Shown here one piece after another: positions 9,797 through 26,105 of a DNA stretch of 61,030 bases. Both the position numbers and the translations under genes were made by a program. The notes beneath the pieces were generated by a model. The model was given only the letters and a program-made list of their open reading frames with translations. It did no database searches and was not told the DNA's origin. Each line of letters starts with the position of its first letter. The stretch's first letter is position 1. The stretch is from an uncultured Clostridium sp. (GTDB taxonomy: Bacteria > Bacillota > Clostridia > Lachnospirales > Lachnospiraceae), in contig CAMWYJ010000015.1 in the NCBI GenBank assembly GCA_947178445.1, positions 1-61,030 on the forward strand, read 5' to 3'.

Positions 9797-11539
9797 ATGG
9801 CAGAGTATTTATCACCAGGAGTATATGTTGAGGAATTTGATTCCGGAAGTAAACCGATGGAAGGGGTCGGCACCAGTACTGCAGGGTTCATCGGACTGAC
9901 ACAAAGAGGAATGACTATTGGTATACCGCAGCTGGTTACCAATTTTGCGGATTTTAAGCGGAAGTACGGAGGTTTTTTGTCGGAAAGTGAATTTGGAGAG
10001 TATCGTTTTTTAGCATATGCAGTGGAGCATTTTTTTATAAATGGAGGATCTAGATGCTTTATTATGCGTGTGGCTCCGGAGGATGCGAAGCAGGCAGTGG
10101 GTTTTCTTCCAAAGGAAGATGGAGCCGTTTTGAAGTTTAATGCAAAAAATCCCGGAGAATGGGGAAATCAGATGCAGGTCTTTGTCTCACCGGCAAGTAA
10201 GGCAAAAACACAGGTCCTGGAGATTGTAACAGAAAATGATAAGAAAAAGTATAAGGTAAAAAAGGCTGCAGGCTTTCATGTAGGAGATATTGTGGCATTT
10301 CAGGAAACGGGATTGGAGAATATTGTTTATAACCGGGTTTCAAAATGCCAGGATAATATCTTGGAGTTTGAAAATGATTTCGATGACGGAATCGTGGATA
10401 CGGAACTTCTTCCAACAAAGGTTCTTTCCACCTGTGAATTCAATTTGGAGATACATTTTGAAGACATTGTGGAGGTGTATGAAAATGTATCCTTTAACAT
10501 GGGGGAAGCAAATTATGTGGTTAAGAGGACAGAGAAATCGGATCTGATCACAGTGGAACATATTATGGGGGAAGACAACGAGATAATTTCTCCGTTTGAA
10601 AGGCTGACCGGTGATGGAACGCTATCTGCAAAAAGCCTGTCTTTAGAAGGCGGGGCAAATGGTTCTGTCGCATCCCTGTCTGCCGCAGATTTTATAGGAG
10701 TCGATAATGGAGCGGGAAAAAGAAGCGGTATTCAGGCGTTTGTAGATAATGATGTGGTTTCCATTATGGCAGTACCGGGAATCACCGATCCCAATGTGCA
10801 GCTAAGCTTAGTGGCGCATTGTGAAAATCTGGCAAGCAGGTTTGCAGTATTAGATATTCCGAGGGATGCAAAGAAAATTGATGATATTGTGGCACACAGG
10901 GAGCTGTTTGATTCAAACTATGCAGCGTTATACCATCCGTGGCTTCAGGTCTTTGATTCGATGGATAAGCGGAATATTGCAATGCCGCCATCTGGTTCAG
11001 TGATTGGAATATATGCAAGAAGTGATAATGAGAGAGGGGTACATAAGGCACCGGCAAACGAAGTGGTAAGGGCTTGTGTCGGGCTAGACTGCAATTTCAA
11101 TAAGGGAGAACAGGACATTTTAAATCCGAAGGGTGTCAATCTGATACGGGCATTTCCGGGAATGGGAATCCGTGTGTGGGGTGCGAGGACAGCCAGCAGC
11201 GATGGTTCATGGAAATATATCAATGTCCGCAGATTATTTATTTTTATTGAGGAGTCCATAAAAGCAAATACGAACTGGGCAGTTTTTGAGCCGAATGATG
11301 AGACCTTGTGGGTAAGAATAAAACGGACCATAGAAGTATTTTTAACCGGTATGTGGAGAAATGGCTCCCTGGCGGGTTCATCCACAGATGAAGCATTTTT
11401 TGTCAATGTTGACCGCACTACCATGTCTCAGGACGATATTGACAATGGAAGACTGATCTGTGTAATTGGGGTGGCACCGGTAAAACCGGCAGAATTTGTA
11501 ATCTTTCGGATTACGCAGAAAACGGGAGATGCCCAGTAG
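9797..11539 (+). CDS. Contractile tail sheath protein
   Basis: This 580-residue protein is a sheath subunit. The N terminus (MAEYLSPGVYVEE) and STAGFIGLTQRG at about residues 27-38 are hallmarks of the Afp/PVC and phage sheath family. The conserved C-terminal region follows from about residue 440 (RVWGARTAS, YINVRRLFIFIEESI, FEPND, and GVAPVKPAEFVIFRI near the end), which builds the inter-subunit handshake. Only one sheath gene is present, whereas Afp and PVC carry three. The sheath wraps the tube and contracts to drive the spike forward. GGGGGCAAAG precedes the start. Confidence 0.95.
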   Translation: MAEYLSPGVYVEEFDSGSKPMEGVGTSTAGFIGLTQRGMTIGIPQLVTNFADFKRKYGGFLSESEFGEYRFLAYAVEHFFINGGSRCFIMRVAPEDAKQAVGFLPKEDGAVLKFNAKNPGEWGNQMQVFVSPASKAKTQVLEIVTENDKKKYKVKKAAGFHVGDIVAFQETGLENIVYNRVSKCQDNILEFENDFDDGIVDTELLPTKVLSTCEFNLEIHFEDIVEVYENVSFNMGEANYVVKRTEKSDLITVEHIMGEDNEIISPFERLTGDGTLSAKSLSLEGGANGSVASLSAADFIGVDNGAGKRSGIQAFVDNDVVSIMAVPGITDPNVQLSLVAHCENLASRFAVLDIPRDAKKIDDIVAHRELFDSNYAALYHPWLQVFDSMDKRNIAMPPSGSVIGIYARSDNERGVHKAPANEVVRACVGLDCNFNKGEQDILNPKGVNLIRAFPGMGIRVWGARTASSDGSWKYINVRRLFIFIEESIKANTNWAVFEPNDETLWVRIKRTIEVFLTGMWRNGSLAGSSTDEAFFVNVDRTTMSQDDIDNGRLICVIGVAPVKPAEFVIFRITQKTGDAQ

Positions 11540-11586
11540 AAAATACCAGGGTGGTCTTCGAAGTATAGAAAGGATTGGTGAGAAAT

Positions 11587-12015
11587 ATGGCAAAGGGGTA
11601 TCCACATGGAAAATTTCGGTTCCGGTTGGAAATAGATGGATTGGAGGCTGGGGGATTTAGTGAGGTGTCAGGTTTTGATGCATCGATTGATGTCATTGAA
11701 TACAGGGAAGGTGATAAGGTACAGACACCGCTTAAGCTTCCAGGATTAAAAAAATATGGAAACATCACATTAAAGCAGGGTGTTATGGACAGTGACGTCA
11801 TGTATAAGTGGATGGAGGCAGGTTTTGAAGGAGATGTTGAACGTAAGACGATTACAATCACACTTTTGGATATTACAGGGCAGGATGCTGCATCGTGGCA
11901 GGTTATCAATGCATGGCCGACAAAATACACAGCACCGGATTTTAATGCAACGGCTTCGGAGGTAGCGGTGGAGACAATGGAAATTGCGCATGAGGGAATG
12001 ACAAGGACAAAATAA
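11587..12015 (+). CDS. Inner tube protein, T4 gp19/Hcp-like (Afp1-like)
   Basis: This 142-residue protein belongs to the phage T4 gp19-like tube family, whose hexamers stack to form the inner tube. Typical features are the start GYPHGKFRFRLEIDG, then GFSEVSGFD at about 22-30, KLPGLKKYGNITLKQG at about 47-62, and EIAHEGM near the C terminus. Length is normal. I chose the ATG at 11587; a TTG at 11575 in the same frame would overlap the ribosome site (AAGGA, 11570-11574). It follows the sheath gene as in most contractile tails. Confidence 0.92.
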   Translation: MAKGYPHGKFRFRLEIDGLEAGGFSEVSGFDASIDVIEYREGDKVQTPLKLPGLKKYGNITLKQGVMDSDVMYKWMEAGFEGDVERKTITITLLDITGQDAASWQVINAWPTKYTAPDFNATASEVAVETMEIAHEGMTRTK

Positions 12016-12034: not shown

Positions 12035-12406
12035 ATGGCATTTCAGACAGAATATGAATTTACATTGCCAAGGGGGTATTTGGATCATACGGGAACCCTG
12101 CACAGGGAAGGCACAATCCGGCTGGCAACGGCTGCAGATGAGATTTTGCCGTTAAAAGATCCGAGAGTGCAGCAAAACCCCGGTTATCTTACGATTATAT
12201 TGTTGGCAAGGGTGATTACAAGACTTGGTTCCCTGCCGGCAGTGGATACCAGGGTAATTGAAAATCTATATACTGCGGATCTTTCTTATCTGCAGGATTT
12301 TTATGAGAGGATCAATACCATGGAGACACCGTGCTATAAATCAATCTGTCCACATTGCGGGCAGGAAATAGAGGTACCTGTAAATTTTATGAATGCCGGA
12401 ATCTGA
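12035..12406 (+). CDS. Tail assembly chaperone-like protein (zero-frame product)
   Basis: This 123-residue protein has no catalytic motif. It ends with a small CPHCG zinc-knuckle-like segment (residues about 107-111). By size, place and composition it looks like the tail assembly proteins found after the tube gene in injection-system loci. Its last codons overlap another reading frame at 12355-12594. Within the overlap lies a -1 frameshift signal (slippery heptamer 12382-12388 with a hairpin 12394-12420), so ribosomes may make both this short form and a longer fusion of about 186 residues. That parallels lambda G/GT. AGAGAGGAATGAGAG precedes the start. Function is inferred by position and architecture. 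Confidence 0.7.
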   Translation: MAFQTEYEFTLPRGYLDHTGTLHREGTIRLATAADEILPLKDPRVQQNPGYLTIILLARVITRLGSLPAVDTRVIENLYTADLSYLQDFYERINTMETPCYKSICPHCGQEIEVPVNFMNAGI

Positions 12407-12420
12407 CCTTATATCCGGCA
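12382..12420 (+). promoter_or_regulatory. Programmed -1 ribosomal frameshift signal
   Basis: In the zero frame the codons GTA AAT TTT give the heptamer A AAT TTT (12382-12388), which fits the X XXY YYZ rule for tandem -1 slippage. After a 5-nt spacer (12389-12393), TGCCGGA (12394-12400) pairs perfectly with TCCGGCA (12414-12420) around a 13-nt loop that includes the zero-frame stop TGA (12404-12406). Slippage would carry ribosomes into the frame that ends at 12594. No ribosome site precedes a start codon for that second frame. All sequence parts are seen directly; use in the cell is inferred. Confidence 0.8.
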
Positions 12421-12594
12421 GATATGATTTATAAGGAGGCAGCATTTATTGCCTATTATGCGCATTGGAGTCATGAGGAGATCATGTCACTCCCACACGG
12501 GGAACGAAACCGGTGGTGCAGTGAATTTTCAAAAATAAACAGGAATCTCAACGAGGAACCGGACAATGTGTTTGATCTTGGCAGCGGAAAATAA
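12388..12594 (+). CDS. DUF6760-like C-terminal part, likely made by -1 frameshift
   Basis: This frame encodes about 68 residues, with YPADMIYKEAAFIAYYAHWS followed by EEIMSLPHGERNRW. It resembles the small DUF6760 proteins found beside tail assembly genes in many injection-system loci (YP..IYEEVAFIAY.FHW pattern, from memory of the family). It has no good start: TTG at 12355, CTG at 12403 and ATG at 12424 all lack a ribosome site, and the last two would cut close to the domain edge. The shift site at 12382-12388 would join it in frame to the assembly protein, giving about 186 residues. If it is not a fusion, initiation at 12424 by coupling is the alternative. Confidence 0.7.
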   Translation, partial: YECRNLTLYPADMIYKEAAFIAYYAHWSHEEIMSLPHGERNRWCSEFSKINRNLNEEPDNVFDLGSGK

Positions 12595-12657: not shown

Positions 12658-12738
12658 ATGAATCTAAAAGATTTGTGTACCGGAGGATGGATACGGAACT
12701 GGAATAGGAGAAAAGAATGGATATACATAGGCAGTTAG
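12658..12738 (+). CDS. Possible 26-codon small ORF, overlapping the next gene
   Basis: An ATG at 12658 follows a strong ribosome site (GGAGG at 12647-12651) and opens a frame of 26 codons: MNLKDLCTGGWIRNWN, a basic stretch, and an end in IYIGS. The stop at 12736-12738 lies inside the start of the next tube-type gene (12717), so the two would be coupled by overlap. The peptide is rich in Trp and Arg. I do not recognise a family. It may be a structural micro-protein or a leader that tunes translation of the next gene. It is equally possible that it is chance. Confidence 0.4.
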   Translation: MNLKDLCTGGWIRNWNRRKEWIYIGS

Positions 12739-13142
12739 TATCAAATTACAGGTTTAAGGTATTGATCGACAATCATGTTATGTCTTTTGCAAAAGTTTCA
12801 GGACTTTATATGGATCTTGAGACGGAAATGCTTTCGGAGGGAGGACACAATGGATCCGGATATATCGCAGCAGTTCCTACAAAAGGAGTAAAAACACTGC
12901 GGTTACAAAGTGGCGTTTTAAATAATGCAAATTCCATTATGGACAAAATGAGTCCCGGCATATATTTAAGACAGGGGCTAGTTGTTATGATGTTAGATAT
13001 GCATGGCAATACAGAAATAAAATATGTGGCAGAACGGGCGCTTGTGACAAAGTGGGAGATATCGGAGATGGATGCACAAAACGGACAGGTGTTGATCCAT
13101 ACATTTGAGATTGCATATACGCAGATGAAAATTATGAGATAA
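12717..13142 (+). CDS. Second tube-type protein, gp19/gp54-like (Afp5-like)
   Basis: This 141-residue protein is a second member of the gp19-like tube family. Signs are NYRFKVLID at about residues 10-18, AKVSGLYMDLETEMLSEGG at about 24-42, LRLQSGV at about 60-66 and IHTFEIAYTQMKIMR at the C terminus. In Afp and PVC particles a divergent tube protein (Afp5) forms the first layers between the spike hub and the main tube, and this gene lies in the matching place before the LysM and spike genes. ATAGGAG precedes the ATG. The GG..NGSGYI loop is the typical place of the tube beta-loop. Confidence 0.85.
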   Translation: MDIHRQLVSNYRFKVLIDNHVMSFAKVSGLYMDLETEMLSEGGHNGSGYIAAVPTKGVKTLRLQSGVLNNANSIMDKMSPGIYLRQGLVVMMLDMHGNTEIKYVAERALVTKWEISEMDAQNGQVLIHTFEIAYTQMKIMR

Positions 13143-13155
13143 GGTGGAATCGGAT

Positions 13156-13701
13156 GTGAAATATTCTGGAATCGTAAGGAATCAGAGCTTTACAGATGTG
13201 ATTTTGAAAAAGCATCAGGGTGTGATACAGCATGGATATGGCAGTTTTCTGGTATACCGCAAAAAGAGGCAGCCTGCAGAGAGGATGACAGCATATAATC
13301 AGATGTACCAGGAATTAACAAAGGTATTCAACAGCCGGATTTTACAGTATGAGAAAAAGTATTATCACACGATAACGAGTCAGGATAATCGGAAATTTAT
13401 CCGGATGATAGAACAGATTCATAACCATCCGGGAGAAAAAAAGCAATTAGTCCATTTGTTTGGGAAACTTGGAATTGTGACCAGGAATCAGAAGGAATGG
13501 CAGGAAACAAAACAGATAGTGAGAAAATATGAGGAAGAGCTTACTATGCTGAAAAGGAAGTTATGCCAACAGGAAGAAATGGTTTTACAGATGAAAGAGA
13601 AAGAAATTATACAGATTTCCGCAAAAAATCTTACCAATATGGTAATGGAGAATATAAAGCGGGAAATCAGGATAGAGCGCATGCGGTATGGATACGATTG
13701 A
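13156..13701 (+). CDS. Coiled-coil-rich injection-system protein, Afp6 position
   Basis: This 181-residue protein is very charged and mostly helical by composition, with a probable coiled coil at about residues 112-150 (ETKQIVRKYEEELTMLKRKL and following). I recognise no domain. It sits between the Afp5-like tube protein and the LysM protein, the slot of the small Afp6 protein. It is also the only helical candidate for a short tape measure in the locus, but at this length it would specify a very short tube. I chose GTG at 13156, which has AAGGTGG eight bases upstream; the in-frame GTG at 13144 overlaps that site. Confidence 0.6.
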   Translation: MKYSGIVRNQSFTDVILKKHQGVIQHGYGSFLVYRKKRQPAERMTAYNQMYQELTKVFNSRILQYEKKYYHTITSQDNRKFIRMIEQIHNHPGEKKQLVHLFGKLGIVTRNQKEWQETKQIVRKYEEELTMLKRKLCQQEEMVLQMKEKEIIQISAKNLTNMVMENIKREIRIERMRYGYD

Positions 13702-13720: not shown

Positions 13721-14371
13721 ATGGGTAATACAGTAACGAAGGCAAAATTGGATGTGGAGGGAAAAAAGAATCCCATACAGGTGGAATTTAATCCAACCGA
13801 ATACAGTTTATCAAATGGAATACAGTACTCAGAAAAAAATATACCAGGGTTGGATGGTCCGATTGGGCAGTATATTTCCGGTAACAGTACCACACTGAAT
13901 GTGACATTTCTTTTTAATACGTATTCTCCGCCTACTTTGGAAAATCCACAGGAGGGTGGAAAGGATGTGACGAAGTATACGAAAGAAATTGTGAAACTGA
14001 CACAAATTGACGGAACCCTTCACAGGGTACCTAAGGTGACCTTTTCATGGGGAAGTATCAAATTTACCGGCATTATAACAGATGTTAAGGAGAGTTATAC
14101 CATGTTCTTAACAAGCGGTATGCCGGTTCGTGCTAAGTTAGATGTCACCTTTAAGTCCGTCTATGATGTAGCAAACGGAAGGAGAACTTCTCCATTTGAA
14201 TCCCCTGACCGTACAAAGGCAAGAGTTTATGTGCAGGGAGAGGCGCTTTGGAGTATTGCGGCACAGGAATATGGAAACCCAAAGTACTGGCGGGTTATTG
14301 CAGAGGAAAATAAGATTTTAAATCCTCTGGATATCCGGGAAGGGCAGGTTCTTAAGCTGCCACCGCTGTAA
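13721..14371 (+). CDS. Tube-baseplate connector with C-terminal LysM (Afp7-like)
   Basis: This 216-residue protein has the N-terminal CIS tube domain (IQVEFNPTEYSLSNGIQYSE, about residues 18-37) and a C-terminal LysM-type module (about 167-216: ALWSIAAQEYGNPKYWRVIA, then NPLDIREGQVLKLP). This is the layout of Afp7/gp53-like proteins that lock the tube start to the hub and baseplate; the LysM may also touch peptidoglycan. It is followed 18 bases later by the spike gene, the usual order. Length is normal. Confidence 0.88.
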   Translation: MGNTVTKAKLDVEGKKNPIQVEFNPTEYSLSNGIQYSEKNIPGLDGPIGQYISGNSTTLNVTFLFNTYSPPTLENPQEGGKDVTKYTKEIVKLTQIDGTLHRVPKVTFSWGSIKFTGIITDVKESYTMFLTSGMPVRAKLDVTFKSVYDVANGRRTSPFESPDRTKARVYVQGEALWSIAAQEYGNPKYWRVIAEENKILNPLDIREGQVLKLPPL

Positions 14372-14389: not shown

Positions 14390-16240
14390 ATGAAGGACAA
14401 GGATTGCATGACAGCAAGTTATACCTATGCAGAGATTGCTGAGGCGTATCAGAATTTTTTTGCACCTGCTGTAGCCGTTTATGTAGATAATCAGAAGCAG
14501 AATGTGATTACGGATAAGGGAATTGCGATTGACAGTATTTCCGTTACTCTGTCGGAGGCAGATACAGCGAGCTTGAGTTTTCAGATTATCAATGCATTTG
14601 ATTTAGAGACAAAAAAATTCAGTGAAGATATAAGATCTGTCTTTTCGGTTGGAACCGTTATAGAGGTGGCAATGGGGTATGGTTCGAATCTTACGTCTGT
14701 TTTTAAGGGATATGTGGAAGAATACAAAACCACCTATCAGACAGTTCCGGTTATTTCTGTTACGGCTTTGGACGTTCGGAAGTTGTTGAAGCAGAACAAA
14801 AGAAAAAAATATAGTTATAAGGAAAAAACATATTCTGATATTTTTGAGGAAATCATGAAATCCTATGAGGATTTGTGTGGTACATTGCATATTGATCCGA
14901 CAAAAGATCCGGTAGAATTACTCCAGGATGATTCGGACTATAATTTTATAAAGAGTGAACTATGTAGGAAGGCAAAAAGAGATTTTTTTGTAGTGGGGGA
15001 ACATGTATATTTCAAGGAGCCGGAGAATAAGACAGCTTCTTTTTTGGAGTTGGAGTGGGGAAAAAGCCTGATATCCTTCCAAAGCGGCAGATCCTATTGC
15101 AATAAACAGTTTAAGGCTTACAGTATGCAGGAAAATAATACGACAAATGAAGTATCATTGGAATTTAAAACACAAGCAGATACACCCTTTTTAAGAAAAA
15201 GTATACAGATAGAAGAAATGGAGCTTGGAGGAAACCTTAGCAATACAGAATTGGAAAACTATATAAAACAAAGGGTGTCCGAGGAAAAAAGGAAGACAAA
15301 GACCGCAGGAGGAACCCTGATTGGACTGCCGGAGATTGTTCCGGGAAGATATATTAAGATCAGTGGAGTTGACGATTTGGATGCTGGGGATTATTACATT
15401 ACAGAAGTACGCCATGATTTTGGAAGTGATGGATTTACTACGAGATTTACGGTTGGGGCACAAAGGGATAATTTGGTTGACAGAGAAAATGCCCGTCATT
15501 GGCAGCGGGATAGTGAATATAAGGGGGTATTGCGTGCAATTGTCAAGGAAAACTGGGATGAGGAGCAGCCGGGAAAGGTTCTGGTGGAGTTTTTAACTGG
15601 GGAAAATGGAAAAAACAGTACAAAATGGCTGCCAGTCTTGCATCCCTATTGTGGTGATGGATATGGTGTTTACTTTCATCCGGAGATTGGTTCTGAGGTA
15701 GTAGTTGGAAGCATGGCAGGAGACGTAAACAGCCTGGTTGTGATGGGTTCTTTGTGGAATAAAGTAAATCAGATTCCAAAAGAAACTGCAAATGAAAAGA
15801 ATACTATAAAAAGGATCCGTACAAAGGCACAGCATGAGATTGTATTTTGGGATGATGAGGAAAATGGACAGATACAGATTTCCACAAAAGGAAAACTGCA
15901 TTTTATTTTAAATGATAAGGAAAAGAAAATATCTGTTTTTGATGAAAAAGAAAAAAATGGACTGCAGATTGATTCCGAAAACGGAATCATTAAGATTGAG
16001 GCGGATAAGAAGATCATATTATCTGCAGGTGGAAATGAGATGCTTTTAATGGAGGCGCAGGGAAAGGCGATGACATTACAGGCAGATAAGCTAAAAGCAA
16101 AAGGAAAGCAGAATGTTCAGATAGAAGGAAACAGCCTGGTGGTAAAGGGAACACAGACAGAGTTGAAGGCAGATGGTTCTATGAAATTAAACAGCGGTGG
16201 GATTGCTGAAATTAAAGGTTCCCTTGTAAAAATAAACTGA
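14390..16240 (+). CDS. VgrG-like spike, gp27-gp5 fusion (Afp8-like)
   Basis: This 616-residue protein is the central spike. Residues 20-370 or so match phage gpD/gp27 hub folds (for example FKGYVEEYKTTY and ALDVRKLLKQ). An OB-fold gp5-type domain follows at about 380-465 (GVLRAIVKENWDEEQPGKV, WLPVLHPYCGDGYGVYFHPE, GSEVVVGSMAGDVNSLVVMG). The C-terminal 140 residues are short repeats rich in beta strands (IKIEADKKIILSAGGNEM and similar), which form the needle. No extra effector domain is fused at the end. GGAAGGAGAAG lies just before the ATG. The PAAR-like tip is encoded separately at 26650. Confidence 0.92.
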   Translation: MKDKDCMTASYTYAEIAEAYQNFFAPAVAVYVDNQKQNVITDKGIAIDSISVTLSEADTASLSFQIINAFDLETKKFSEDIRSVFSVGTVIEVAMGYGSNLTSVFKGYVEEYKTTYQTVPVISVTALDVRKLLKQNKRKKYSYKEKTYSDIFEEIMKSYEDLCGTLHIDPTKDPVELLQDDSDYNFIKSELCRKAKRDFFVVGEHVYFKEPENKTASFLELEWGKSLISFQSGRSYCNKQFKAYSMQENNTTNEVSLEFKTQADTPFLRKSIQIEEMELGGNLSNTELENYIKQRVSEEKRKTKTAGGTLIGLPEIVPGRYIKISGVDDLDAGDYYITEVRHDFGSDGFTTRFTVGAQRDNLVDRENARHWQRDSEYKGVLRAIVKENWDEEQPGKVLVEFLTGENGKNSTKWLPVLHPYCGDGYGVYFHPEIGSEVVVGSMAGDVNSLVVMGSLWNKVNQIPKETANEKNTIKRIRTKAQHEIVFWDDEENGQIQISTKGKLHFILNDKEKKISVFDEKEKNGLQIDSENGIIKIEADKKIILSAGGNEMLLMEAQGKAMTLQADKLKAKGKQNVQIEGNSLVVKGTQTELKADGSMKLNSGGIAEIKGSLVKIN

Positions 16241-24773: not shown

Positions 24774-26105
24774 ATGACAGAAGAGGAAAAGAAATATTTG
24801 CGGATTGGCAGCTATTATATCAGAAAGAAGTTTATCCTTTATATTTTCATGGTGTTATCGCTGCTGCCTTTGTTTTTTATAGGTATGATCTATCCTTATT
24901 TTGAGGAAAACCTGTATCCAAAGTGGTTTGTCAGGACAATGTATGTCAATGCAAAAGAGAGGCTTAACTACACAGGAAGGGTAAAGCTTACAGCTGATGA
25001 AGCAGGAAAGCAGGTGTTATTTTTGGGAAGCCTTAAGGAAGGGCGGATTGAAGGAGAAGGAATGCTTTATGATTATGAAGAAAATCTGATGTACCAGGGA
25101 GGATTTGAAAAGGAGGCTTATTCCGGAACTGGAATTGAATATTATAAAGGCGGAATTCCAAAGTATCAGGGAGGGTTTGCGTTAAACCAATATGAAGGGG
25201 AGGGGATTTTGTATTATAAGGATGGCACCATACAGTATGAGGGCACATTTGCAGCGGGAACCTTTGAGGGAAGTGGGAGTCTTTATAATGAAAAAGGAAT
25301 ACTGAAATATGAGGGAGAATTTTCAAGGGGAAAACGGGAGGGAACAGGAAAGAGTTTTTATGATAGCGGGCAAAAGCAGTATGTTGGGGAGTTTTCCAGA
25401 GGTATATATCAGGGGATGGGAATTTTATATGCCCCAAATGGAGACGTGGTCTATAAGGGAGAGTTTTTAGATGGGATGTATGATGGTCAGGGAAAGCTCT
25501 ATGAAAAGGGAGAGGTCAAGACGGAGGGATTGTTTTCAAAAGGGGAATTTACTGGTGGAAGCACCATTTTATACTATAAGGACGGAACCATAATGTATGT
25601 TGGAAATGTGGTAGATGGTAAGATGGATGGTGACGGAAAGTTTTATGATGAAGATGGAAATCTGGTTTATGAGGGGGCATTTAGCAATGATAAAAAAGAA
25701 GGAAAGGGAACTGCATATAATAAGGCGGGAAAAGTCATTTACGAAGGGGAGTTTGCAAAGGATAAATATGAGGGAGCGGGGAAGCTATTTGAACCTCGCA
25801 CAGGAAATATTATTTATGAGGGCGGTTTTTTTTCAGGTATGTATTATGGGAATGGGAAGCTTTATGACGAACATACAAGGACGAAAATATATGAAGGCGA
25901 ATTCCGGTATGGAATGTATGATGGATATGGCATTTTGTATGCTGCGGATGGTTCTATGAAATATGAGGGAAATTTTTCTCTTGGAAAATATCATGGTTAT
26001 GGAGTTCTTTATAACCCTCTTACAGGAGAAATTGTCTCAGAAGGCGAATTCCGGGAGGGAGTTTGTGTGACTCCGGTCAAGGAGGAGACGGAAGATGAGT
26101 TGTAA
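24774..26105 (+). CDS. Membrane-anchored MORN-repeat protein
   Basis: This 443-residue protein has one membrane segment (about residues 20-40) and then, from about residue 87 to 432, fourteen tandem units of 23-25 residues with the MORN-type consensus G.Y.G.G.LY...G...YEGEF. MORN repeats form extended beta-hairpin ladders that bind lipids or partner proteins. Basic residues before the membrane segment suggest that the repeats face outside, but the other orientation is possible. GGAGGAAAAG precedes the ATG. The gene follows the pseudokinase-like membrane protein by 14 bases and overlaps the DUF4255 gene by 11, so it is translated with true injection-system parts. A docking, ruler or adhesion role is inference. 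Confidence 0.8.
   Translation: MTEEEKKYLRIGSYYIRKKFILYIFMVLSLLPLFFIGMIYPYFEENLYPKWFVRTMYVNAKERLNYTGRVKLTADEAGKQVLFLGSLKEGRIEGEGMLYDYEENLMYQGGFEKEAYSGTGIEYYKGGIPKYQGGFALNQYEGEGILYYKDGTIQYEGTFAAGTFEGSGSLYNEKGILKYEGEFSRGKREGTGKSFYDSGQKQYVGEFSRGIYQGMGILYAPNGDVVYKGEFLDGMYDGQGKLYEKGEVKTEGLFSKGEFTGGSTILYYKDGTIMYVGNVVDGKMDGDGKFYDEDGNLVYEGAFSNDKKEGKGTAYNKAGKVIYEGEFAKDKYEGAGKLFEPRTGNIIYEGGFFSGMYYGNGKLYDEHTRTKIYEGEFRYGMYDGYGILYAADGSMKYEGNFSLGKYHGYGVLYNPLTGEIVSEGEFREGVCVTPVKEETEDEL

Follow-up and report, generated by a model that had tools for sequence, protein, structure and literature searches.

Two overlapping genes in the operon of a contractile injection system, here called U and D, are very probably one locus with two products, a chaperone U and a −1 frameshift product U-D. 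We examined their junction in the window, a 61,030-nt stretch of contig CAMWYJ010000015.1 from an uncultured Clostridium sp. of the Lachnospiraceae, and in related loci. The −1 frame relation is conserved, a slippery site lies in phase near the end of U, D mostly lacks a start of its own, U matches a profile of tail assembly chaperones, and D resembles the E' protein of phage P2. On these combined grounds, a frameshift pair like E/E+E' of P2 seems to be part of contractile injection systems of the eCIS type in Bacillota, cyanobacteria, other bacterial groups, and some archaea. The interpretation offered in the earlier note on this DNA was largely right, with corrections concerning the hairpin and the start codons that overlap the end of U.

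The U/D junction in the window

The operon to which U and D belong fits, by its genes, a contractile injection system of the eCIS type. Profile searches of the window ORFs placed sheath, tube, tube adaptor, spike, baseplate, and AAA+ ATPase genes together around U and D (Table 1), and further matches nearby were CIS12-, CIS13-, baseplate-, Pvc16-, and AAA+-like. The gene order is sheath, tube, U, D, CIS5-like adaptor, CIS_tube-family gene, and spike. U directly follows the tube gene, and none of the window ORFs scanned was recognisable as a tape measure gene. In a first phylogenetic tree, the window locus grouped with loci from Lachnospiraceae and other Clostridia. Between the CIS5-like and CIS_tube genes lies a 185-aa ORF (positions 13144–13701) whose best family match was phrog_19133 (0.00087); it matched no Pfam family and no NCBIfam family convincingly, and neither of its two sequence matches to solved structures was convincing. 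Another ORF inside the operon (positions 24774–26105) contains MORN repeats.

Table 1. Features of the U/D junction and the surrounding genes, in window coordinates
Feature	Position	Strand	Evidence
Contractile sheath protein	9797..11539	+	PF04984, PF17482
Inner tube protein (gp19 family), precedes U	11575..12015	+	PF06841, E 2.5e-46
U, tail-assembly-chaperone-like gene, 123 aa, frame 0, C-terminal CPHCG motif, stop TGA 12404-12406	12035..12406	+	ORF; phrog_508 'tail assembly chaperone', E 1.9e-8
AGAGGT, Shine-Dalgarno-like, 6 nt upstream of the heptamer, possible stimulator	12370..12375	+	sequence; class enrichment
Slippery heptamer A AAT TTT, presumed −1 ribosomal frameshift site	12382..12388	+	in frame
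D, −1 frame extension, DUF6760 domain, 68 aa, stop 12592-12594	12388..12594	+	PF20546, E 2.9e-19
Spacer, 5 nt	12389..12393	+	sequence
Hairpin, perfect 7-bp stem TGCCGGA 12394-12400 / TCCGGCA 12414-12420, 13-nt loop	12394..12420	+	sequence and RNA fold
CIS5-like tube adaptor, next gene after D	12717..13142	+	PF06841, E 4.8e-16; NF053770 CIS5_fam, E 3.1e-12, below cut-off
CIS_tube-family gene, weak LysM match	13721-14371		profile match
Spike	14390-16240		profile match

The earlier note had described an in-frame heptamer, a short spacer, and a perfect hairpin, preceded by a tail-assembly protein and followed in the next frame by a DUF6760-like domain, and each of these elements is present (Table 1). 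Read from the ATG at 12035, the heptamer AAATTTT falls in the codons GTA AAT TTT ATG, and the 3' end of U continues as AAT GCC GGA ATC TGA, with its stop codon in the hairpin loop. The RNA fold of positions 12380–12440 has an energy of −14.6 kcal/mol (z −2.1), which was equalled by 5 of 200 shuffles. No stop codon interrupts the −1 frame between 12340 and 12591, and its DUF6760 match scores 69.3 bits against a Pfam gathering cut-off of 27; the predicted fusion U-D comprises 118 aa of U and 68 aa of D, or 186 aa. Candidate starts for D are limited to TTG (12355) and ATG (12424), the latter inside the conserved beginning of the DUF6760 domain, and neither has a Shine-Dalgarno (SD) sequence by the rule used, in agreement with the note's statement that the second frame has no ribosome site or well-placed start. 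AAATTTT by itself is not rare, with 37 copies in the window, below the 60 expected by chance; the weight of the argument rests on its phase and its conservation.

Frame, slip sites, and starts across related loci

The search for DUF6760 covered 397 genomes from the family of the window (39 matched; 30 of 40 places fetched), 391 from its class (16 matched), and 398 from its phylum (13 matched), and also 6 genomes reached through the loci and 117 from the phylum to which a Nostoc genome belongs (13 matched). Scanning named genomes yielded 546 confirmed relatives; only the best 80 of these were used, so that this set leans towards close relatives of the query. Among plasmids, 34 records matched and 12 of them were fetched. 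In all, 172 loci were parsed, with the pattern locus of the window itself (L001) omitted as a copy of L005; one false match (L044, a 774-aa frame) and one locus with fused U-like and D parts (L242) were dropped. U adjoins D in 170 of the 172 loci, which gave 157 distinct sequences. In 153 of these 157, the surrounding DNA encodes a protein related to the tube, sheath, or CIS5-like protein of the window, and relatives of both tube and sheath were present at all six archaeal loci checked.

Conservation of the relative frame, one of the checks proposed in the earlier note, was borne out: D lies at −1 relative to U in 154 of the 157 distinct loci. Among the three exceptions, U and a shortened D share a frame with a TAG between them in L043 (genome G572), which may reflect decay, error, or readthrough; U itself is shifted in L056; and D is in frame 0 in L143. 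All three may be damage, errors, or real variants. If a sequencing error or gene decay had split one original ORF, U and D would likewise read as one protein, and the three exceptions may be of this kind; however, 154 distinct loci show the −1 relation at one and the same position, and we rejected this pseudogene reading as scarcely credible. The relative frame alone does not prove that ribosomes slip, because a 4-nt ATGA overlap also gives −1.

Of the 154 loci with D at −1, 151 have an in-phase slippery site in the final 45 nt of the overlap (102 canonical XXXYYYZ sites and 49 with a G run only). Reading the same 45-nt stretches in the other two phases gave 11 and 7 sites, and of 13,929 equally long control windows taken from U, 6.6% contained a slippery site. 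The loci without such a site are L252, where a G run lies further upstream, and Brevibacillus L069 and L070, which have none in the whole overlap. By type of site, the 154 loci fall into an A class (A_AAT_TTT, 56 loci), a T class (T_TTT_TTN, 35), a G class (a G run, G_GGG_GAR/GGA, 58), and five others, namely L034 and L049 (each with a G run also fitting T_TTG_GGG), L069, L070, and L146. The expectation that the heptamer would be conserved therefore holds in part: AAATTTT is kept in the 56 A-class loci, and elsewhere T_TTT_TTN or a G run stands in its place. Slippage of RNA polymerase, by which transcriptional realignment would join the two frames in the message, might be suspected at the six T of the T-class sites and the five or more G of the G-class sites. 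Bacterial polymerase slippage usually needs runs longer than four, whereas AAATTTT in the window contains no run over four. Codon phase, moreover, would not matter to a polymerase, yet sites in the other two phases are rare. We rejected transcriptional slippage, which is very improbable, on these two grounds.

To avoid the circularity of classes defined by their heptamers, dipeptides rather than sites were counted in the 154 loci. In the last 15 codons of U, Asn-Phe was written A_AAT_TTT in 56 of 58 cases, compared with 4 of 13 elsewhere in U, and Phe-Leu was written T_TTT_TTA/G in 37 of 42, compared with 6 of 52. Gly-Glu was written G_GGG_GAR in 60 of 86 cases there and, among the spellings listed, in 4 of 39 elsewhere. 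These counts indicate that the base before the dipeptide and the third codon bases are kept beyond the needs of the protein. When the final part of U, which contains the slip region, was left out of a tree of 149 loci, the three slip types needed five changes, where the least possible number is two, although few columns support this tree and its well-supported branches alone force fewer than five; the first tree, which still held part of the slip region, gave six. The slip signal has been replaced more than once while the −1 frame relation survived.

According to another explanation, D is a separate gene expressed by translational coupling: ribosomes that finish U would restart nearby, at a TTG, an ATG, or a non-standard codon, and the −1 relation would reflect the overlap of start and stop. 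A start with an SD sequence, defined as ATG, GTG, or TTG with an anti-SD duplex at the right distance, was found for D in 12 of the 154 loci (A class 1/56, T class 2/35, G class 7/58, others 2/5), compared with 114 of the 142 U genes having an ATG near the N-terminus. The absence of a D start with a ribosome site thus extends from the window across 142 of the 154 loci and breaks down in the remaining 12, including Brevibacillus L069 and L070. When the demand for an SD sequence was dropped, 61 of the 154 loci had some D start (21 in the A class, 10 in the T class, 26 in the G class, and 4 others). Starts within 9 nt of the U stop occurred in 7/56 A-class, 1/35 T-class, 10/58 G-class, and 3/5 other loci. 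In the A class, U and D overlap by 16–406 nt (median 37), and the single start with an SD sequence lies 73 nt before the stop. Coupling also leaves the in-phase heptamer, its fixed spelling, and the three interchangeable types unexplained, and we regard it as an unlikely account of D.

Nevertheless, coupling is likely to be real in some relatives. ATGA overlaps occur in L146, from a Haloferax larsenii plasmid, and in Brevibacillus L069 and L070; behind GGGGGAA, Rhizobium L138 has ATGA and the Streptomyces plasmids L145 and L147 have GTGA. The anti-SD sequence could pair directly with the G run, and PLSDB/RefSeq annotates D as its own gene in six of the plasmid regions viewed. The Brevibacillus loci, which read T_TTT_TCA, not slippery by the rule, and have an SD sequence at their overlap, are the only ones without a slippery site in the overlap. 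In the Haloferax locus, U is lengthened and its ATGA with D is SD-less by the rule used; an in-frame G_GGA_AAC heptamer also lies about five codons before the U stop. This is the pattern expected if restarting replaced the slip in those lines, and no other finding points as strongly to restarting as a genuine alternative in part of the family. The proposal of the earlier note that many DUF6760 genes may be frameshift extensions fits most of the loci examined, which come from Bacillota, cyanobacteria, actinobacteria, proteobacteria, other phyla, and methanogen/ANME archaea; in Haloferax, Rhizobium, and the two Streptomyces plasmids, the start-stop overlap could let D be made alone.

Upstream of the slip site, an SD-like duplex (≤ −6 kcal/mol), a possible stimulator of the slip, was found in 66% of A-class, 69% of T-class, and 62% of G-class loci, compared with 16, 7, and 12% of control windows, at a median gap of 7–10 nt; the coding demand for Glu may add to this enrichment. 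Downstream, the hairpin of the window did not turn out to be general in its class: the GCCG of its 5' arm is held by 31 of the 56 A-class loci, and in the 29 chosen for GCCG (L065 and L066 being dropped as differently built), covariation neither supports nor opposes the hairpin because its five-pair core hardly varies. The G class is structured downstream (mean z −3.1, compared with −0.18 in a control stretch; mononucleotide shuffles). In its 7-bp stem GGCTACC/GGTAGCC, 90.5% of cells are paired, compared with 27–66% when the arms are slid, and 12 cells are doubly changed where shuffling predicts 4.3; the stem showed no surplus of pair types (7, compared with 7.9 in shuffles), and RNAalifold on this class neither chose it nor gave a useful consensus. 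This stem is likely, although not proven, to be real. The T class has little downstream structure (mean z −0.45).

Identity of U and D and comparison with known systems

By profile, U is a putative tail assembly chaperone: phrog_508 (tail assembly chaperone) was matched by all 36 aligned U relatives (best 8.5e-10), and Pfam Gp41_Mu was matched weakly by 12 of the 36 (best 0.0024). U differs from the Mu gp41/PHROG 508 chaperones in that a CPxC, zinc-ribbon-like motif directly precedes the slip site at the C-terminus of most U proteins. The frameshift of Mu itself is −2. A confident AlphaFold2 model of U (mean pLDDT 83.9, pTM 0.64) places two long strands at the N-terminus and a two-stranded part at the C-terminus, and it also contains four helices. 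Profile comparison detected no likeness between U and gpE of P2 (probability 0.1), and a tblastn search with U against phage records gave no match.

Profile alignments point to a remote likeness between D and E', the product of the P2 frameshift. Comparison by hhalign of the D profile with a profile of E' (PF06528), built from P2 and ten other phage records, gave a probability of 91.8 and an E-value of 7e-7 over 31 columns; 80 E' loci from viral contigs, 98–100% identical to P2 E', were not used. The score was 33.5, and none of 200 alternative column orders, one of them the reverse, scored as high (best 19.7). PHROG 10636 is common to P2 E' (2.3e-5) and 23 of 36 D proteins (best 5.3e-5), and phrog_1756, the family of P2 E', was matched by 9 of the 36 (best 0.0098). 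Pfam gave no direct match of D to PF06528. PF06528 was also sought in 118 genomes of the phylum of genome G1160 and was found in none of them. A search of viral contigs with the D protein gave three stretches that fit a pattern, none of them confirmed, and sequence comparison with solved structures gave three chance-like matches for D and one for U, none convincing.

The arrangement in P2 is similar. The P2 record marks a −1 frameshift at the codons GGT TTT TTG, a T-class site whose heptamer, T_TTT_TTG, is the same as in many Paenibacillus eCIS loci, and the P2 order of sheath (FI), tube (FII), and E/E+E' matches the eCIS order of sheath, tube, and U/D. In contrast to P2, the window holds an injection-system operon rather than a phage, its heptamer is A_AAT_TTT, and the gene after D encodes a CIS5-like adaptor instead of a tape measure. 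The gpG/gpGT pair of phage lambda, like G/GT pairs more widely, also consists of a chaperone and a −1 extension; the lambda tail, unlike eCIS, is non-contractile, and this likeness is drawn from the arrangement and not from sequence. The review PMC5009743 states that long-tailed phages other than T4 widely conserve low-level frameshifting of chaperone pairs and that the mature virion contains neither product. For lambda, it describes gpG as binding to the tape measure and the T part as binding to the tube protein, with a critical ratio of the two products.

We also considered whether D might be the Alg6/Afp6 plug. The accessible text of PMC8894135 describes Alg6 as a small protein needed for AlgoCIS assembly, and there and in that of PMC8894136 the plug is resolved inside particles. 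The names Alg6, Cis6, and Afp6 would place the plug between Cis5 and Cis7, whereas D sits between the tube gene and the CIS5-like gene, and no solved chain is convincingly related to it. We consider D unlikely to be the plug.

The words frameshift and chaperone are absent from the main text, as accessible, of these two structural papers on such systems. We found no report of frameshift recoding in eCIS in the open-licence literature, to which the search was confined, and this is weak evidence of novelty, subscription papers lying outside its scope; no paper on DUF6760 was found in the same literature. The device itself is known from phages.

Proposed mechanism and its significance

Under the frameshift explanation, most ribosomes would make the 123-aa U, which would be in excess, and a fraction would slip back one base at A_AAT_TTT. 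In this step, the P-site tRNA-Asn would move from AAT to AAA and the A-site tRNA-Phe from TTT to TTT, perhaps helped by the upstream AGAGGT and the downstream hairpin. Ribosomes that slipped would read on through D to give U-D. By analogy with G/GT of lambda and E/E+E' of P2, U may coat an assembly intermediate such as a tape measure, and the D domain may recruit tube subunits; because of this division of roles, a fixed ratio of U to U-D could govern tube assembly, and neither product would be expected to stay in the particle.

We lean, by a modest degree, towards a broader reading, in which a chaperone pair set by frameshifting is general to bacterial and archaeal eCIS, DUF6760 is the counterpart of the T domain, and G_GGG_GAR with a GCTACC/GGTAGC stem immediately downstream is a natural class of −1 signal outside XXXYYYZ, ranging from cyanobacteria and Streptomyces to ANME archaea. 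At G_GGG_GAR, a P-site glycine tRNA could re-pair fully, but the A site would need a G-U pair in the middle position, so that slippage with an open A site seems as likely.

If the frameshift explanation is correct, DUF6760, a family of unknown function annotated as a separate small gene, gains a likely role and a likely way of being made, and eCIS operons are predicted to encode a longer protein that has been missing from them. A U gene that is codon-optimised or cloned separately would lose the slip site, which might upset assembly or length. The shared recoding device would tie eCIS to contractile phages of the P2/Mu kind, and the three interchangeable slip signals would offer a natural series.

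Several loci vary this arrangement. In L242 (genome G1161, Aminicenantes), a 338-aa frame consists of T4_baseplate (PF12322, 1.9e-21) followed by DUF6760 (1.6e-7), a natural fusion in which DUF6760 is joined to another phage-assembly protein in one frame, without a slip. Two U-like genes stand in tandem in nine cyanobacterial loci (L238, L240, L243, L248, L251, L252, L254, L255, and L143), with D after the second; the second U overlaps D at −1 in the first eight, and D is in frame 0 in L143. In L011 (genome G344, of the same family as the window), the slip site is T_TTT_TTG, and approximately 40–50 extra residues lie between it and the DUF6760 domain.
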